NCBI GenBank assembly: GCA_001464695.1
Contig: LNDQ01000108.1
Location: forward strand, 62,001 to 126,000
Origin: Betaproteobacteria bacterium Ga0077523
GTDB lineage: Bacteria; Pseudomonadota; Gammaproteobacteria; Burkholderiales; Ga0077523
Length of the DNA: 64,000 bases
Direction of reading: 5' to 3'
Positions within the stretch are counted from its first letter, which is position 1, and the number at the start of each line of letters is the position of its first letter. Positions 44,921 through 53,938 of the stretch are shown in pieces. Below the pieces are notes generated by a model. The model saw only the letters and a list, made by a program, of their open reading frames with translations. It was not told the DNA's origin and made no database searches. The position numbers were made by a program, and so were the translations under genes.

Positions 44921-47365
44921 TCACCCATTCAATTCGAGCTTCGGCACCACCTTGAACCCGGTGGGCTTCACTTTCTCCGGTAGCACTCGTCCTTTGTGCG
45001 CGCGCGTGCTGGCGAAGTGCCCGAGCTCCCGCTTGCCGAGCGCGACTTCCTTTTCCTTGCCGCCGCGCCCCACGCCGACCACCGTCAGCGTCGGCAGGTC
45101 GGACACCAGCACCGCGACCAGCTTCTCATCCTTGTCGAGACCCATCAGGATCAGGCCGCGCCCCTTCGGCTGATACTTGAGTTCGGAGAGTTGCACGAGC
45201 AGCAGCTTGCCACCCTCGGACACGGAAGCGACATAGCTTCCCGGCGTTTCCGTGAACGTCACCGGCGGCACGGGTGTCTCGGTCGCTTCGAGCGACATGA
45301 ACTCGCGGCCCGCCCGACGATTCGAAACCATGTCGGCGAGCCTGGTGTGGAACGCATACCCGCCGGTCGACGCCACCAGTATCTGCGTCTCGGCCTTGCC
45401 GGCGAGGCAGTAAAGGATCTTGGCGCCATCCTGCACTTCCACCAGCGACGAGGCCGGTACGCCATCGCCACGACCGGACGGCAGGGCGGTCGCCTCGACC
45501 GAATAGGCGCGGCCCTTGGAATCGAGGAACACCACCGGGTCGACGGTGCGGCACTGGATCAGCGTCTGCAGCCCATCGCCTTCCTTGAAGGACAAGGCCG
45601 AGGCGTCCACCTCCCAGCCTTGCCGCCCGCGGATCCAGCCGATGCGCGAGAAGATCACGGTGATCGGCTCGTCGATGATCGGCGTGGCCATCACCGCTTT
45701 CTCGGAGACCTGGATGACCGTCCGGCGCGCGTCGCCGAAGGTCTTCATGTCGGCTTCGATCTCCTTCACCACCAGGTTCTCGAGGGCCTTGCGCGATCCG
45801 AGGATCTTCTCGAGGTCCTTCTGCTCCTTGCGCCTGGCGTCGAGCTCCTGCTCGACCTTGATGTGTTCCAGCTTCGCCAGTTGCCGCAGGCGCATTTCGA
45901 GGATGTCTTCGGCTTGCCGTTCGGTCAGCGCAAACGCCGCCATCAGCTCCGCCCTCGGCTCGTCGGCATTGCGGATCACCTTGATGACCTTGTCCACGTT
46001 GAGCAGGACGATCATCCGGCCTTCGAGCACGTGGATGCGGTCGAGCACCTGGTCGAGGCGGAACTGCGTTCGGCGCGTCACCGTCGCGAGCCGGAACTCG
46101 GTCCACTCGAGCAGCATCTCGCGCATCGACTTGCCCGTAGGCCGGCCGTCGAGGCCCACCATCACCAGATTGATCGACGCATTGCCTTCCAGGCTGGTCT
46201 TGGCGAGCAGCAGGTTGACGAACTCGGTCTCGTCCACCTTCGAGGTCTTCGGCTCGAGCACCAGGCGCACCGGGTGGGTACGATCCGATTCGTCGCGCGC
46301 CTTGTCGAGCATCGACAGCATCAATCCCTTCTCGCGCTGTTGCTCCGGCGTCAGGGACTTCTTGCCGGGCTTCGGCAACGGATTGGTCAGCGCCTCGATC
46401 TCCTCCAGCACCTTGCGCGTCGACGTTCCGGGCGGCAGCTCGGTCACGACCATCTGCCATTGACCGCGCGCGAGCCGCTCGATGGTCCAGCGCGCCCGCA
46501 CACGCACCGAACCGCGCCCGCTTTCATACGCTGCGATGAGCTCGTCACGCGGCGTGATGATCTGTGCCCCACCGGGGAAATCCGGCCCCTGGATGTGCTG
46601 GACGATGTCGGACGTCTTCAGCTTCGGGTTGCGGATCATCGCGATGGCCGCGTTGCCCACTTCCACCAGGTTGTGGCTGGGAATCTCCGTCGCCATGCCC
46701 ACCGCGATGCCCGAGGCCCCGTTCAGCAGGAGCACGGGCAGCCGCGCGGGCAGCACCGAAGGTTCTTCCGTGGAACCGTCGTAGTTCGGCACGAAGTCGA
46801 CGGTGCCCTGATCGAGTTCCGCCAGCAGCACTTCGGAGAACTTCGTGAGGCGCGCTTCCGTGTAACGCATGGCGGCGGGTTCGTCGCCGTCGCGCGAACC
46901 GAAGTTGCCCTCGCCGTCGATCAGCGGATAGCGCAGGGTGAAGTCCTGCGCAAGCCGCACCAGAGCGTCGTAGACGGACTGATCGCCGTGCGGGTGAAAC
47001 TTGCCGAGCACGTCACCCACCACGCGAGCCGACTTCTTGCGCGGCGTGCCCGCGCGCCCGTTCATGTCCCACATCGCGTACAGGATGCGTGACTGCACCG
47101 GCTTCTGTCCGTCGCCCACCCGCGGCAGCGCGCGATCCTTCACCGTGGCGATCGCGTACTGCAGGTACTGCAGCGAGGCGTAGCGCCCGATCGGCAGCGC
47201 ATCGCCGAACTCGCCTTCCATCGGCGCGAAGTGCGGCGGCAGTTTGCCGTCGCCGCCGCCACCACCCGCGGGCGCGCGCGGCGCCTTCGGTATCTCGTTC
47301 TTCGGCGGTGGCGCCACAGCGGTGTCGCCGCCCGTCTCGTCGAACAGATCTCTTTGATCTTCCAT
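44921..47365 (-). CDS. parC: DNA topoisomerase IV subunit A
   Basis: 814 aa. The breakage-reunion domain has [39 protein letters not shown] and [22 protein letters not shown]. The catalytic Tyr is in [18 protein letters not shown] near 165, with a [17 protein letters not shown] segment near 230. The C-terminal beta-pinwheel carries [17 protein letters not shown]. No GyrA box is seen, so ParC not GyrA. Start at 47365 is chosen because TAAGGA, overlapping the stop of the gene before, lies 8 bases upstream; two earlier in-frame ATGs lack a site. Works with ParE to unlink chromosomes. Confidence 0.95.
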
Positions 47366-47375
47366 GCTTCGATCC

Positions 47376-47912
47376 TTATTTTCCATCGGCGACGACATCG
47401 AAGTCCTGGACCACGATGTCGCGCACGCCGTCGGTCACGACGAAGCGCCATTTGCCGGGGACGAGCTGCCAGTCGTTGCGCAGTTCATGGCCACCGCACC
47501 AGCGGCCACGACCGTTCGTCACCGCGACCATGTGCGGGGCGTTCCAGCCGTTGGTTTCGACACCGTTCGGCTGTGTCAGCACCGGATGCCGCACGAATTC
47601 CGAAAGCATCGTCTTGCCGCCGCTGTCGTTGAGGCCCGCGAGGTCGGCACAGAAACCGAAGCGCACACCCTTGCGGGCAGGCACTTTGTGGGTCTGCTTC
47701 TCGAGGGCAGGCTTGCCGTTGACGATGGTGTAGAGGCCGTACTCGGTGATCTCGCCGGTGGGAACGCCTTGGGCGGAGACGAACGCGGGCGCACCGACGG
47801 TGGCCAGCGCAAGAATCGCCCCCACCCTGGCCCTCCCCCGGCAAAGCCGGGGGAGGGGACCTACACCCCTTCCCCCGACTTCGTCGGGGGAAGGTTGGGA
47901 TGGGGGCAACAT
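47376..47912 (-). CDS. DUF3859-like exported protein with repeat-derived N terminus
   Basis: 178 aa from ATG at 47912. The conserved part starts after a signal-like [20 protein letters not shown] and runs [76 protein letters not shown] to the end; this resembles DUF3859. The first 30 residues are encoded by a type A repeat and give an Arg-rich n-region. Other starts are an ATG at 47999 that overlaps the parE stop (ATGA) and a GTG at 47825. It sits between parE and parC on the same strand, probably in their operon. Function unknown. Confidence 0.68.
47819..47908. repeat. Type A dispersed palindromic element (copy 8)
   Basis: Left part CCCACCCTGGCCCTCCCCC with hairpin GCAAAGCC/GGGGG, right part CTTCCCCCGAC/GTCGGGGGAAG and GTTGGGATGGGGGCAAC. 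It lies within the open reading frame at the start of the DUF3859-like gene. Confidence 0.85.
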
Positions 47913-47995
47913 CACGTCCGTTTCGACGGCAATGCCATTGACCGGCCGCCATTCGCGCGCTTCGTTGTTCAAGCTCTGCCTTTCGACGCCAAACA

Positions 47996-50542
47996 TCATG
48001 AGATATCCGCATCCACGAGATTGCCGTACGTCTCCATCCACTCCCGTCGCTGCGAAGCGTTCTCTTTCGCCATCATCATGTTGAAGATGTCGTTCGAGAT
48101 CTCGAGTTGCCCGTCCTCCACCAGCACCGGCAGCATGCGCCGCGTATCGGGATTGAGCGTGGTTTCCCACAACTGCTCCGGACTCATCTCGCCCAGTCCC
48201 TTGAAGCGACTCACCGTCCACGCGCCCTCCTTCACGCCCTCGTCCTCGAGCTTCTCTTCGAGGCTCGCGAGCTCCTGCTTGTCGAGCGCATAGAGCTTGC
48301 GCGCGGGCTTGTTCTTGCCGTGGGCGGGTACGTCGATGCGAAAGAGCGGCGGCTGCGCCACGTACACATGCCCCTTCTCGATCAGCTTCGGAAAATGCCG
48401 GAAGAACAGCGTGAGCAGCAGCACCTGAATGTGCGAACCGTCCACGTCGGCATCGGCCAGGATGATGACCTTGCGGTAGCGCAGGCCCGAAAGATCCGGG
48501 TTGTCGCCGGGCTTGTGATGGTCGACGCCTACCGCCAGAGCGATCGCTTCGATCTCCTTGTTGGCGTAGAGAGTGTCAGGGGAATCCTGCCAGGTGTTCT
48601 TCGGCTTGCCCTTCAAGGGCAGTACGGCCTGGAATTCCTTGTCGCGCGCCTGCTTGGCCGACCCGCCCGCGCTGTCGCCTTCGACGATGAAGAGCTCATT
48701 GCGATCCGGGTCGTCCGACGCGCAATCAGTGAGCTTGCCGGGCAGCACGGCCACGCCCGAGCTCTTGCGCCGCTCGACCTTCTGCGCCGCACGCGTGCGC
48801 GCCATCGCCTGGCGTAGCACCAGGTCGGCGATGCGCTTGCCTTCGTCCACATGCTGGTTCAACCAGAGCTCGAACGGGTCACGCACCATTTGCGCGGTCA
48901 GCTTCACCGCATCGCGCGAGATGAGCTCGTTCTTGACCTGGCCCTTGAACTGCGGGTCGAGCATCTTCACGGCCAGCACGTAGTTGGCGCGGGACCACAC
49001 GTCTTCCGGCACGACCTTGAGGCCGCGCTGCCCCATGGCGTGCAGGTCGATGAAGTTGCGGATGGCGTTGTAGACCCCTTCGCGCAGCCCCGACACATGG
49101 GTGCCGCCGTGCCGCGTCGGGATCATGTTCACGTAGCTCTCGTTCACCAGGTCGCCATCGGCCGACCACGCGATCGCCCACAACGCGCCCTCGCCTTCTG
49201 CGAAGCTGTCGGACTCGGACTGCGCACTGATGTAGCGCTCGCCGAGGAAGCTCGACGCGACCGGTTCCGCACCCACCATGGCGTTCGCGAAGTAGCCGCG
49301 GATGCCTTCGGGGAAATGCCATTGCGTCGTCTCGAACTTGCCGTTCTTCTCGACGTTCAACGCGAACTTGACACCCGGCAGCAGCATCGCCTTGGCACGC
49401 AGCAGCGCGGCGATGTCGGTCGGCACGATCTTCGGCGAATCGAAGTACTTCGCATCGGGCCAGAAGCGCACGCGCGTACCGGTTTCGCGCGGACCGGCAT
49501 TGCCGGTCTTCTTGAGTGGCTCCTTCAACTGGCCGTTGGGACCGAACACGATGCGCCAGGCTGCGCCATCGCGCTTCACATCCACTTCGAGCTTCGTCGA
49601 CAGCGCATTGCTGACGCAAACGCCCACGCCATGCAGACCGCCCGCGATGCGATAGACGGCGTCCTTGTCGGTCTTCCGGAACTTGCCGCCCGAGTGCAGC
49701 GTCGTGAAGATTACCTGCACTGCCGGCACCTTCTTCTTCGGGTGTATGTCCACGGGGATGCCGCGGCCATCGTCCACGGCTTCCGCCGAGCCGTCCTCGT
49801 ACAACGTCACGACGACATTCTTCGCGAAACCTGCCAGCCCTTCGTCAGCCGCGTTGTCGATGATCTCGACCAGCGCGTGGTTCGGGTTGACCGGGTCGGT
49901 GTACATCCCCGGCCGATGCAGGATCGGCGAGAGATCCTCGAGGATCTCAATGTCTTCCGCGGTGTACGCGCTGTCTTTCTTTGCCATCTTTGTGGCGGCG
50001 TGGGGAATCTTGGGAACGGCACCCGAGCGGTCGGTGCCCAGGCGCTTGCGCAGTTCGCGGATCGCGATGGCGCGCACCGCTTCCGGCCCGCTGCGGATCG
50101 CGTCGACCAGGGCGAACAATTCGTGCAGCACCGGATCACGGATCGCCGCGACCGGCACCGACTTGTACAGCGGCTCCAGCGCGACACCGCGGACCTCGCC
50201 CGCCGGGTCGGGCCATACGGCGGGCGGCTCGTCGGTCGGCGGCAGCAGATCCAGCAGCGGCGCCGCCGACTCGGCGGTCGGCAGCCCCAGGGTCAGCCCA
50301 CCCCGCTCCGCTGCCCAGACGTAGCGCACACCGTAGATCAGCAGTTCGTCCAGCCCCTTGGCATCCGGCACGCCCCAGCCTTCGTTCAGCCGGAGCAGCC
50401 CGGCCTCACCGCAGCGCTTGACCGCCGCATGGACCTCCGAGGCCGACATGCCGAGCTCCCAGGCGAGCTGCGTATAGCTCCAGGGCTCGGGGCCTCGCGC
50501 CACGATCTTGAGCAGCAGGCAGACGTCCTGAGGCTTGAGCAT
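47996..50542 (-). CDS. parE: Winged-helix regulator fused in frame to DNA topoisomerase IV subunit B (ParE)
   Basis: 848 aa in one uninterrupted frame. Residues 1-168 are a MarR-like winged-helix protein: PWSYTQLAWELGMSASEVHAAVKRCGEAGLL near 20-50, ERGGLTLGLPTAESAAPLL, then VWPDPAGEVRGVALEPLYKSVP and a C-terminal LHELFALVDAIRSGPEAVRAIAIRELRKRL. A 17-residue linker joins Met186 (MAKKDSAYTAED), the normal ParE start. ParE itself is complete, about 663 aa: EIIDNAADEG near 226, GGLHGVGVCVSNALS near 300, the Toprim motifs EGDSAGGSAKQARD near 619 and DADVDGSHIQVL near 693, and an intact C terminus. The ATG at 49987 has only a weak ribosome site, so ParE may be made mainly as a fusion. An operator-like palindrome lies just upstream of the start. 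Confidence 0.93.
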   Translation of the reverse strand: MLKPQDVCLLLKIVARGPEPWSYTQLAWELGMSASEVHAAVKRCGEAGLLRLNEGWGVPDAKGLDELLIYGVRYVWAAERGGLTLGLPTAESAAPLLDLLPPTDEPPAVWPDPAGEVRGVALEPLYKSVPVAAIRDPVLHELFALVDAIRSGPEAVRAIAIRELRKRLGTDRSGAVPKIPHAATKMAKKDSAYTAEDIEILEDLSPILHRPGMYTDPVNPNHALVEIIDNAADEGLAGFAKNVVVTLYEDGSAEAVDDGRGIPVDIHPKKKVPAVQVIFTTLHSGGKFRKTDKDAVYRIAGGLHGVGVCVSNALSTKLEVDVKRDGAAWRIVFGPNGQLKEPLKKTGNAGPRETGTRVRFWPDAKYFDSPKIVPTDIAALLRAKAMLLPGVKFALNVEKNGKFETTQWHFPEGIRGYFANAMVGAEPVASSFLGERYISAQSESDSFAEGEGALWAIAWSADGDLVNESYVNMIPTRHGGTHVSGLREGVYNAIRNFIDLHAMGQRGLKVVPEDVWSRANYVLAVKMLDPQFKGQVKNELISRDAVKLTAQMVRDPFELWLNQHVDEGKRIADLVLRQAMARTRAAQKVERRKSSGVAVLPGKLTDCASDDPDRNELFIVEGDSAGGSAKQARDKEFQAVLPLKGKPKNTWQDSPDTLYANKEIEAIALAVGVDHHKPGDNPDLSGLRYRKVIILADADVDGSHIQVLLLTLFFRHFPKLIEKGHVYVAQPPLFRIDVPAHGKNKPARKLYALDKQELASLEEKLEDEGVKEGAWTVSRFKGLGEMSPEQLWETTLNPDTRRMLPVLVEDGQLEISNDIFNMMMAKENASQRREWMETYGNLVDADIS

Positions 50543-50551
50543 GGCCGCATT

Positions 50552-50593
50552 CTATTCGCGAATCGCGAATAGCGAAAAGGGCATACCCCTCAA
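50552..50593 (-). promoter_or_regulatory. Promoter with perfect palindromic operator ahead of the regulator-parE gene
   Basis: CTATTCGCGA (50552-50561), one base, and its exact complement TCGCGAATAG (50563-50572) form a 10+1+10 palindrome only 9 bases from the start codon. On the minus strand a possible -35 TTGAGG (50588-50593) and -10 TATTCG (50566-50571) with 16-bp spacing place the -10 inside the palindrome. This suits repression by the winged-helix domain encoded just downstream. Confidence 0.65.
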
Positions 50594-50636
50594 GGGACGT
50601 CGCTTGGCGGCGACGTCGCGGCCACACGTCGGGGGG

Positions 50637-51308
50637 TCAGATCCGCCCGTAACGCTTCAGGATGACGTCCAGCGGCGCCCCGCTGTCGATGTCCATCCGG
50701 ATGCTCTTTTCCCGCTCGGTGATCTTTTCGGCCTCGGCGAGCACCGTCTCGATGTGCGCCGCCGGAATGACGACCACACCGTCCGCGTCGCCCAGCATGA
50801 AATCGCCGGGCGCCACTTCCACGCGCCGACTGGTGGCGCCGGGCATCACGATCGGAACCTGGCAGCCGGTGACCTTCAACCGCCCGATGGACTGCACCGG
50901 CGAACGGTATCTCGCGTAGACCGGCATCCCGTGCTTCGCGATCCACGCGCTGTCGCGCACGCCGCCGTTCACCACGATGCCAACACACCCGCGCACCTTC
51001 ATGCCAAGAGCGAGCAGTTCGCCGAACGAAGCCATGCCCTCGGCATCGCCCGCCCACACCGACACGACACCGGGCATCATGCCGTTGATCGCCTGCATCT
51101 TGTCCGGATCGCCCGGACCTTCGTAGGGCTGCAGGTGCATGCGCACCGTGTACGCGAAGCCCGCGAGCTTCTCCTGATTCGCCGCGATGGGAACCAACGC
51201 GGTGGAGAGCGCCTGGTCGAATCGACCGACGCCTTCCAGCACGTCGGAAACCGTCGTCGTATCGACGGCGAGAAAGCGGCTGCGGATGGATTCCTGTTCG
51301 GGAGTCAT
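50637..51308 (-). CDS. RraA family protein (aldolase/demethylmenaquinone methyltransferase-like)
   Basis: 223 aa. Pattern DTTTVSDVLEGVGRFDQALS, GPGDPDKMQAINGMMPGVVSVWAGDAEGMASFGELLALGMKVRGCVGIVVNGGVRDSAWI near 75-125, and FMLGDADGVVVIPAAHIETVLAEAEKITEREK near 175 is typical of RraA/HMG aldolase-like proteins. The DxxxxR-type metal site (GGVRD) suggests a class II pyruvate aldolase or decarboxylase on a hydroxy acid rather than an RNase E inhibitor. Follows the SMP-30 gene by 19 bases. Confidence 0.9.
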   Translation of the reverse strand: MTPEQESIRSRFLAVDTTTVSDVLEGVGRFDQALSTALVPIAANQEKLAGFAYTVRMHLQPYEGPGDPDKMQAINGMMPGVVSVWAGDAEGMASFGELLALGMKVRGCVGIVVNGGVRDSAWIAKHGMPVYARYRSPVQSIGRLKVTGCQVPIVMPGATSRRVEVAPGDFMLGDADGVVVIPAAHIETVLAEAEKITEREKSIRMDIDSGAPLDVILKRYGRI

Positions 51309-52378: not shown

Positions 52379-53938
52379 CTATGAGCTGCAGGACAGCATG
52401 GAGCACCCGGCACGGGTACGTGCCCAGTCGGGCCGCTTCGCGGCAAAGCGCTCGCGGCCGGGCTGATCCTCGTAGGGACGGCGCATCACGTCGAGCAGTT
52501 CGTCGATGCGGCCGAAGTCACCCTGCTCTGCGAGGTCGATGGCTTCCTGGGCGAGGTAGTTGCGCAGGACATAGCGCGGGTTGACCGCGTTCATGCGTGC
52601 TCGCCGCTCGATGTCAGGGATCGCGTTCGATCGGATGCGTTGAGCGTAGCGCTCGAGCCACGTCGTGACCTGCGGTCGCGTCGCAACGCGCTTGGCCTCG
52701 TCGTAAAAGGCCGGCGCCAGCACGTCGGACTCCGGACGATCGAGATCCACGCCTGCGAGCAGACGGAAGGCGAGTGTCATGTCCACCTCCGCCTCGTGCA
52801 GCAGCAAGTAGAAGTCGGAGCCGATCTCGCCGTCGCGATCGCGCCAGGTGTCGAAACCGAACTTGGCTGCCGTCATGCGCTGCTGCTCCGCTTCGAACAC
52901 TGCAGCAAATCGATCGAGGCCCGCCTCCAGCGGCGCGGTGGAAGGAAACACCGGCACCAGCGCATTCGCGAGCTGCGCGAGATTCCAGTGCGCGATCTGC
53001 GCCTGCTGCCCGAAACGATAGCGACGTCCGGCAGCATCCGTGGTGTTCGGTGTCCAGCCGGGATCGAAATCCTCCAGCCACCCGTAGGGGCCATAGTCGA
53101 TGGTGAGCCCGAGGATCGACATGTTGTCGGTGTTCATCACGCCGTGGACGAACCCCACCCGCAGCCAGTGAGCGACCATCGTCGCCGTGCGCTCGCAGAC
53201 AGCGTGGAACCACCGCGTGCGGCGTTCGACCGGATCGCCTGCTATCTCGGGGAAGTCACGCCGGATGGTGAACTCCACCAGACGCTCGAGGGTCGCAAAA
53301 TCCGAGCGGGATGTGAAGATCTCGAAGTTGCCGAAGCGGATGAACGAGGGTGCCACGCGGCACACGATCGCTCCTTGCTCTGCCTGCGGCCGGCCGTCGT
53401 AGAACATGTCCCGCACCACTTCTTCGCCGGTACCCACCAGGCACAGGGCCCGCGTCGTGGGTACGCCGAGGTGATGCATCGCTTCGCTGCATAGAAACTC
53501 GCGGATCGACGAACGCAGTACCGCCCGGCCGTCGGCCGTGCGTGAGTACGGGGTGGGTCCAGCGCCCTTGAGCTGCAGTTCCCAACGTTCGCCTCGCCGG
53601 TTGACGACTTCGCCCAGCGTGATCGCGCGACCGTCGCCCAGTTGCCCCGCCCATTGGCCGAACTGGTGACCGCCGTAGACCGCAGCGTAGGGCTGCATCC
53701 CGGGTAACGTCCGGTTGCCGCCGAACACTTCCGCAAAGTCGGGCGTTTGCACGTCGGCCGCCGTCAGGTCGAGCAATGCGGCACACTCGGGCGACCACGA
53801 AATGAGCCTTGGCGCAGCCACCTTCGTGGGGTCCACCCGCGAGTAGCATGCACCATGCACCTGTCGCCGCCGCGGACCGGTATCGGCATCGGCGGGCAGA
53901 TCGCGGACGAAGCTGTTGTCGAATACGATGGAGTTCAT
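52379..53938 (-). CDS. selO: SelO/YdiU family protein adenylyltransferase
   Basis: 519 aa pseudokinase-fold AMPylase. Blocks: MQPYAAVYGGHQFGQWAGQLGDGRAITLGEV near 80-110, RWELQLKGAGPTPYSRTADGRAVLRSSIREFLCSEAMHHLGVPTTRALCLV near 118, GVMNTDNMSILGLTIDYGPYGWLEDFDPGWTPNTTD near 245. The closing Cys-rich CSMLSCSS at the C terminus is where eukaryotic forms carry selenocysteine. Known role: AMP transfer to redox proteins under oxidative stress. Stand-alone gene. Confidence 0.95.
   Translation of the reverse strand: MNSIVFDNSFVRDLPADADTGPRRRQVHGACYSRVDPTKVAAPRLISWSPECAALLDLTAADVQTPDFAEVFGGNRTLPGMQPYAAVYGGHQFGQWAGQLGDGRAITLGEVVNRRGERWELQLKGAGPTPYSRTADGRAVLRSSIREFLCSEAMHHLGVPTTRALCLVGTGEEVVRDMFYDGRPQAEQGAIVCRVAPSFIRFGNFEIFTSRSDFATLERLVEFTIRRDFPEIAGDPVERRTRWFHAVCERTATMVAHWLRVGFVHGVMNTDNMSILGLTIDYGPYGWLEDFDPGWTPNTTDAAGRRYRFGQQAQIAHWNLAQLANALVPVFPSTAPLEAGLDRFAAVFEAEQQRMTAAKFGFDTWRDRDGEIGSDFYLLLHEAEVDMTLAFRLLAGVDLDRPESDVLAPAFYDEAKRVATRPQVTTWLERYAQRIRSNAIPDIERRARMNAVNPRYVLRNYLAQEAIDLAEQGDFGRIDELLDVMRRPYEDQPGRERFAAKRPDWARTRAGCSMLSCSS

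Follow-up and report, generated by a model that had tools for sequence, protein, structure and literature searches.

The stretch of DNA analyzed here (the window, 64,000 nucleotides of one contig of Betaproteobacteria bacterium Ga0077523) raises the question of how a DNA-binding regulator came to share a reading frame with ParE, and whether the two are made as one protein. A single uninterrupted frame of 848 amino acids is present in the window's ORF list at 47996-50542 on the minus strand. It begins with MLKPQDV and passes through MAKKDSAYTAEDIEIL (Met186) into ParE without a stop codon. An earlier note on this DNA had described one stop-free frame made up of a regulator of about 168 residues, a 17-residue linker, and a complete ParE, and the ORF list, Pfam, and NCBIfam all bear this out. 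The features of the locus are given below.

50554 to 50570, no strand: 17-bp palindrome ATTCGCGAWTCGCGAAT, proposed operator, sole copy in the genome at one mismatch or fewer
50549 to 50554, minus strand: possible -10 box TAGAAT, found by eye, 6 nt before the regulator ATG
50039 to 50542, minus strand: regulator domain, residues 1-168, a winged helix followed by a C-terminal half specific to the family (PADLOC PDC-M21A, AlphaFold, and alignment)
49988 to 50038, minus strand: linker, residues 169-185, unconserved among relatives
49993 to 49994, no strand: site of a length difference, where genome G008 has 40 nt more and genome G009 37 nt more (blastn gap listing and junction alignment)
47996 to 49987, minus strand: ParE, topoisomerase IV subunit B, 663 amino acids from Met186 (Pfam and NCBIfam)

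The ParE domain and its surroundings

The NCBIfam model parE_Gneg matches residues 192-840 (profile positions 3-622 of 625, E 1.9e-204). Its score of 680.7 bits is below the curated cut-off of 723.35, although none of the other four topoisomerase models matched does better. The Pfam domains HATPase_c, DNA_gyraseB, Toprim, and gyraseB_C are found in that order on the ParE part. With all of its domains in order and at complete length, this part is a ParE. It is 84-99% identical to nine ParE proteins of the two lineages discussed below and 52-57% identical to five compared from other families. A second gyrase-B-type gene is located on contig C111 of the same genome and is presumably gyrB.

Downstream of parE there is an 825-aa ORF (44921-47398, minus strand). 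We take it to resemble ParC, so parE and parC would be near neighbors. Positions 47835-47890 contain two GC-rich palindromic units of the CCCCCGRCTTCGYCGGGGG type, a REP-like family. Genome-wide, this type is matched 55 times in forward and 69 times in reverse orientation at one mismatch or fewer, and the reversed control has no match.

A structure model of the whole fusion has a mean pLDDT of 53.8 and is poor over ParE. It was built from an alignment with only one other ParE row and is uninformative on domain contacts. The linker scores 42 (residues 171-180) and 33 (residues 181-190) in this poor model. Two alignments with more ParE rows, A2 and A4, misplaced the regulator rows and were excluded (A2 on sight, A4 as judged from its identities). 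The N-terminal arm of GyrB and ParE participates in the ATPase dimer. The extension of 185 residues might affect ParE activity.

Identity of the regulator domain

The upstream domain can be placed in PDC-M21A on a PADLOC profile match that covers most of the profile's length (E 3.6e-35, residues 18-168, profile positions 50-202 of 205; the tool gives no curated cut-off for its profiles). PDC denotes a phage-defence candidate, and a defence role for PDC-M21 is a PADLOC candidate label only. The name PDC-M21 was not found in the literature searched. AlphaFold predicts residues 1-174 with a mean pLDDT of 94.4, as a winged helix followed by the family-specific half.

The earlier note had called this domain MarR-like. 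The winged helix holds up and MarR family membership does not. Pfam MarR_2 scores 23.1 bits on the regulator alone, below its cut-off of 27. HTH_IclR reaches 24.3 bits on the regulator alone (cut-off 22) and 21.2 within the full protein. In a Foldseek search of the PDB, every match had an E above 0.001 and was confined to the winged-helix part. A profile search of PDB sequences returned weak matches only (best E 0.0051).

The N-terminal part is a genuine gene and not a chance open frame, because it has relatives at 97-31% identity, a dN/dS of 0.059 against G008 (the window's closest relative), and a predicted fold with a pLDDT of 94.4. In pairwise comparisons, dN/dS for regulator residues 1-172 is 0.059 (window-G008), 0.082 (window-G009), and 0.072 (G008-G009). 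For ParE residues 1-480, the corresponding values are 0.028, 0.029, and 0.026. Both domains are under purifying selection. Neither has a sign of decay, but a recent fusion would show none.

Gene order and reading frames in relatives

Of the 12 genus genomes, the window's included, 10 have the regulator, and in nine of these it stands directly before parE. In G004 its copy precedes a nucleotidyltransferase (NTase) gene instead of parE. In family f39 it is present in three of four genomes and precedes parE in all three. The parE-linked genomes therefore number 12 (the window's, eight others of the genus, and three of family f39). Wider sampling found the regulator in 48 of 399 genomes of the order and in 44 of 369 genomes of the class.

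Whether relatives share the fusion, a check that the earlier note had proposed, was answered in the negative. In all 11 relatives found to have the gene pair, among them one that is 97% identical, regulator and parE do not share a frame, and only the window has the fusion. A conserved fusion was also rejected on frame length. Among the match rows of both samples, a frame of at least 800 aa occurs in the window only, and the next longest is 465.

In the 11 relatives, the conserved VDAIR motif or a variant of it is separated from the parE ATG by 145, 142, 136, 136, 124, 142, 142, 112, 127, 100, and 127 nt. These spacers are always 1 mod 3 despite seven different lengths, and the window's is 105 nt, or 0 mod 3. 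It is the sole frame-breaking spacer change among the 12 parE-linked genomes. The same can be seen locus by locus, as the spacers of 100-145 nt in L004-L012, L048, and L049 vary by multiples of 3 only. It is as if the overlap or the regulator tail were under selection. The regulator frame ends 32-41 nt inside parE in 9 of the 11 relatives. In L009 (13 nt before) and L048, the regulator stop precedes parE.

Two further explanations were considered and set aside. The constant frame offset in all 11 relatives raised the possibility that they make the fusion by programmed frameshifting. This is unsupported, as L009 and L048 stop before parE and no slippery site was recognized by eye. A regulatory RNA hairpin in the 40 nt that the window lacks was rejected, since the junction RNAs of G008, G009, and G006 are not more stably folded than shuffled sequences (z 0.87, -1.17, and 0.96).

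The 40-nt difference

The window and G008 are 97% identical in the regulator, 98.8% in ParE, and 90.7% in DNA over 9.1 kb. According to the blastn gaps and the junction alignment, the window is without 40 nt that G008 has, six bases before the parE ATG. This difference puts regulator and parE in one frame. The fusion is known from only one assembled genome, which is 87% complete. The earlier note had held that an identical relative with separate genes would mark the fusion as an artefact or a recent decay. G008 comes near to being such a relative, which points to either a recent event or an artefact.

The absence of the 40 nt is either a lineage-specific deletion or an assembly error. If it is an error of assembly or consensus, the genes would be separate and overlapping as in the relatives, with the 40 nt missing from the contig only. 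The restriction of the fusion to 1 of 12 parE-linked genomes is in keeping with this. With the spacer 1 mod 3 in all 11 others, a lone frame-breaking change fits an error as well as a real event. The assembly consists of 156 contigs at 87% completeness, and the 40 nt of G008 hold a GC-rich inverted repeat (gcgcc-acgc-ggcgc, by eye). However, the junction sits mid-contig, at 112 kb of the 226 kb of contig C108. The other gaps relative to G008 in the frames at 44921-47398, 47996-50542, and 52379-53938 are multiples of 3 or are compensated within 6 nt, and so the 9.1-kb block is not rich in frame errors. In addition, the two genes come out in frame and free of stops, an outcome that a random error yields in about one third of cases. 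An error is considered unlikely. The deletion is probably real, a grade that is judged and not computed.

The start of ParE

The earlier note had also argued from a weak ribosome site at Met186 that translation as one polypeptide is favored. No Shine-Dalgarno-like pairing was found before Met186 in the window, and to that extent the observation stands. The pairing before parE is -2.2 kcal/mol in G008, -2.2 in G009, and -0.9 in G010. The argument is weakened by G002, which has a free-standing parE without the regulator and also has no such pairing at its start. The loss of the ribosome-site-like stretch favors the fusion product, and an internal ParE start at Met186 is possible.

It could then be that the deletion is real and ParE is still mainly started at Met186 without a Shine-Dalgarno sequence, with the fused product minor or incidental. 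The window has kept the A-rich start region of parE (acaaag ATG gcaaagaaa) and the ParE N terminus MAKKDSAY. Weak pairing in G008, G009, and G010, and none in regulator-free G002, would fit with such a start. Ribosomes coming from the regulator start, on the other hand, meet no stop before the Met186 site, and in the window the pairing before it is gone. The predicted RNA fold of the window also places the start region partly in a hairpin, a fold that is no better than shuffles. Main initiation at Met186 appears rather unlikely, and a product that is largely the fusion is preferred.

The palindrome and a possible promoter

The palindrome ATTCGCGAWTCGCGAAT is expected by chance 0.02 times in the window at two mismatches or fewer. 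In shuffles, the largest value was 14 of 17 bases. In every one of the 12 parE-linked genomes, a copy with 15-17 of the 17 bases is found no more than 300 nt upstream of the regulator. In 10 of the 12 it is found at this quality within 150 nt, and it is exact in G006 (about 270 nt) and G007 (about 174 nt). The search at one mismatch or fewer covered 14 other genomes. G003, G006, G007, G008, G009, G010, G049, and G134 have one site each, some 10-270 nt before the regulator. G011 has two sites, one upstream of the regulator and one on another contig. The single site of G093 is on a contig other than the regulator's. At this threshold it is absent from G005 and from G001, G002, and G004, the three genus members without a parE-linked regulator. 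Forms with 15 of 17 bases precede the regulators of G005 and G093 and the NTase-linked copy of G004.

Among the regulator copies that are not linked to parE, 8 of 23 have the palindrome at 15 of 17 bases or better within 150 nt, and the other 15 have a weaker one. The palindrome appears to belong to the regulator because it also precedes these eight copies. It tends to accompany the regulator, as would be expected of an autoregulatory site. An AbiEi-type autorepressor is a wHTH protein that binds inverted repeats at its own promoter. The locus has a winged helix and an upstream palindrome, and the regulator is a candidate for this type, with binding of the palindrome putative. The autoregulation suggested in the earlier note gains support as a link between regulator and site, with binding and repression as its putative part. 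The same note had suggested that ParE might be tethered to DNA by its new domain. Tethering to many sites is unlikely with one genomic palindrome at one mismatch or fewer, and a genome-wide regulon of the palindrome was rejected on the same count.

A consensus scan of 47900-50800 found no sigma-70 consensus promoter. The possible -10 box TAGAAT abuts the palindrome. It can be conjectured that a near-leaderless transcript starts from it, both in the window and in G008, with a similar situation in G009.

The regulator could instead be a hitchhiker that plays no part in the expression of parE. Three members of the genus (G001, G002, and G004) do have parE without an adjoining regulator. This reading is very unlikely given that the regulator has been kept beside parE in 9 of 12 genus members and in three of four genomes of family f39, that its dN/dS is low, that the palindrome is retained, and that the frame offset is constant.

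Nucleotidyltransferase partners and the probable origin of the regulator

The neighborhoods of 32 of the 48 order-sample genomes were read. In 12 parE is next to the regulator, and in 20 there is an NTase or an NTase fragment. All 20 have it within 1.5 kb, with only about 30 matched residues in L055 and L060. In the class sample, 29 loci other than the window were read (of 43 genomes with a match). There were 17 with an NTase or fragment, 12 with none, and none with parE. The pairing of regulator and NTase is not universal. The NTases of L024 and L031, both of those tested, match PDC-M21B. Of three partner NTases compared with Pfam AbiEii, one is above the cut-off, one just below, and one has no match. 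No NTase was detected at E 1e-4 near the regulators of the 12 parE-linked genomes, where the search took in about 1.5 kb to either side (a longer stretch in four genomes). Membership of the locus in a PDC-M21 system was rejected, as parE takes the place of the PDC-M21B NTase.

In L080 and L083, two of the 12 class loci with no NTase found next door, the regulator and a nucleotidyltransferase domain are joined in a single frame, and a HepT-like gene comes next. The earlier note knew this type of regulator only as a free protein, which no longer holds; fusion of the regulator has a precedent. L084 resembles these two, as judged by its ORFs only. The arrangement in L080 and L083 is that of a HEPN/MNT-type module that additionally contains a regulator domain.

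At E 1e-5, homologues of the regulator are present on 119 of 72,556 plasmid records, and the 50,697 phage records contain none. The NTase neighbors and the plasmid homologues suggest that the likely source was a mobile antitoxin-like/NTase pair. In a tree of 49 of the 64 loci, the 12 parE-linked regulators form one clade (support 96/93). The regulator was probably captured beside parE once, because these copies form a single clade.

The regulator is dispensable, because G001, G002, and G004 have parE without an adjoining copy. About 210 nt before its parE, G001 (L036) has a 22/22 match to the segment of G009 with half of the operator and the possible -10 box. It also has a 15-base match to the C-terminal region of the regulator, at E 0.004 only. 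This remnant is probably a scar of regulator loss. No trace of loss was seen before parE in G002 and G004. On the ParE tree, the linked-regulator label needs four changes, and one loss or several among these three genus members are not separated.

A model for the locus

The reading preferred here, with a probability of roughly 0.57, is as follows. The regulator would be a domesticated orphan of a mobile antitoxin-like/nucleotidyltransferase pair (PDC-M21A of PDC-M21A/B), captured a single time upstream of parE, together with its palindromic operator, in an ancestor of two Burkholderiales lineages. Regulator and parE would then form an autoregulated two-gene operon. The regulator may bind the operator at its own promoter and so limit transcription of both genes. 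The overlap of 32-41 nt in 9 of 11 relatives suggests translational coupling. In the window's lineage, one deletion of 40 nt would have joined the frames and removed the weak ribosome-site-like stretch of parE. ParE would most likely be made, at least largely, as a fusion of 848 residues that carries an operator-binding domain. The repressor and ParE would be the same polypeptide, and the level of topoisomerase IV would be set directly by the amount of fusion.

The winged helix of AbiEi, the wHTH antitoxin of AbiE, represses its own operon via inverted repeats (PMC3985639), and by analogy repression of the regulator-parE operon is the most likely role of the captured protein. A stronger form of the proposal is that ParE is here obligately fused to the domain that binds its own operator. 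This essential type II topoisomerase would be a specific repressor of its own operon, drawn to one chromosomal site, and would have arisen from a captured antitoxin-type regulator in one step. This form is put forward tentatively and as doubtful.

The regulatory link proposed in the earlier note is supported by the palindrome. Its in-frame fusion stands but is limited to one genome. The capture of a PDC-M21A-type regulator, together with its palindrome, beside parE in two lineages is better founded and of wider scope than the fusion. The genomes represent a natural series in which the two genes overlap, stand apart, are reduced to parE with a scar of the lost regulator, or are fused. An antitoxin-type regulator appears to have been recruited with its operator to an essential housekeeping gene, with fusion to the controlled enzyme as perhaps the next step. 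Supercoiling-sensitive transcription is one route of topoisomerase control, described for topoisomerase I (PMC4770202). A dedicated parE repressor with a single genomic operator would be another. A ParE with a fused or dedicated regulator was not recognized among the literature matches listed, and the matches of a further search were HEPN/MNT papers only.

Comparison with known systems

Compared with the ParE of Gram-negative bacteria, the window protein has all of the domains at full length and differs in its N-terminal addition of 185 residues. PDC-M21 consists of PDC-M21A and PDC-M21B. The regulator shares with it the PDC-M21A match, relatives elsewhere that often stand just before an NTase, and a similar upstream palindrome at 8 of 23 loci without a parE link. 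The window differs in having parE and no adjoining NTase.

The type IV toxin-antitoxin system AbiE pairs the autorepressor AbiEi with the NTase AbiEii. The window resembles it in a wHTH with a C-terminal half, encoded by the first gene and preceded by an inverted repeat. It differs in that the regulator has no AbiEi match in Pfam or PADLOC and in that there is no toxin at the locus. An antitoxin of the AbiEi type would neutralise a partner NTase, and the locus has no such partner. AbiEi recognizes a pair of 11-bp repeats that are 27 bp apart (PMC3985639), whereas the window has one 17-bp palindrome.

Fusions of a PDC-M21A-like domain to an MNT-type nucleotidyltransferase beside HepT are, at the two loci tested (L080 and L083), natural fusions with this regulator as the N-terminal part, as in the window's frame. 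The partner there is a small NTase, and here it is a topoisomerase.
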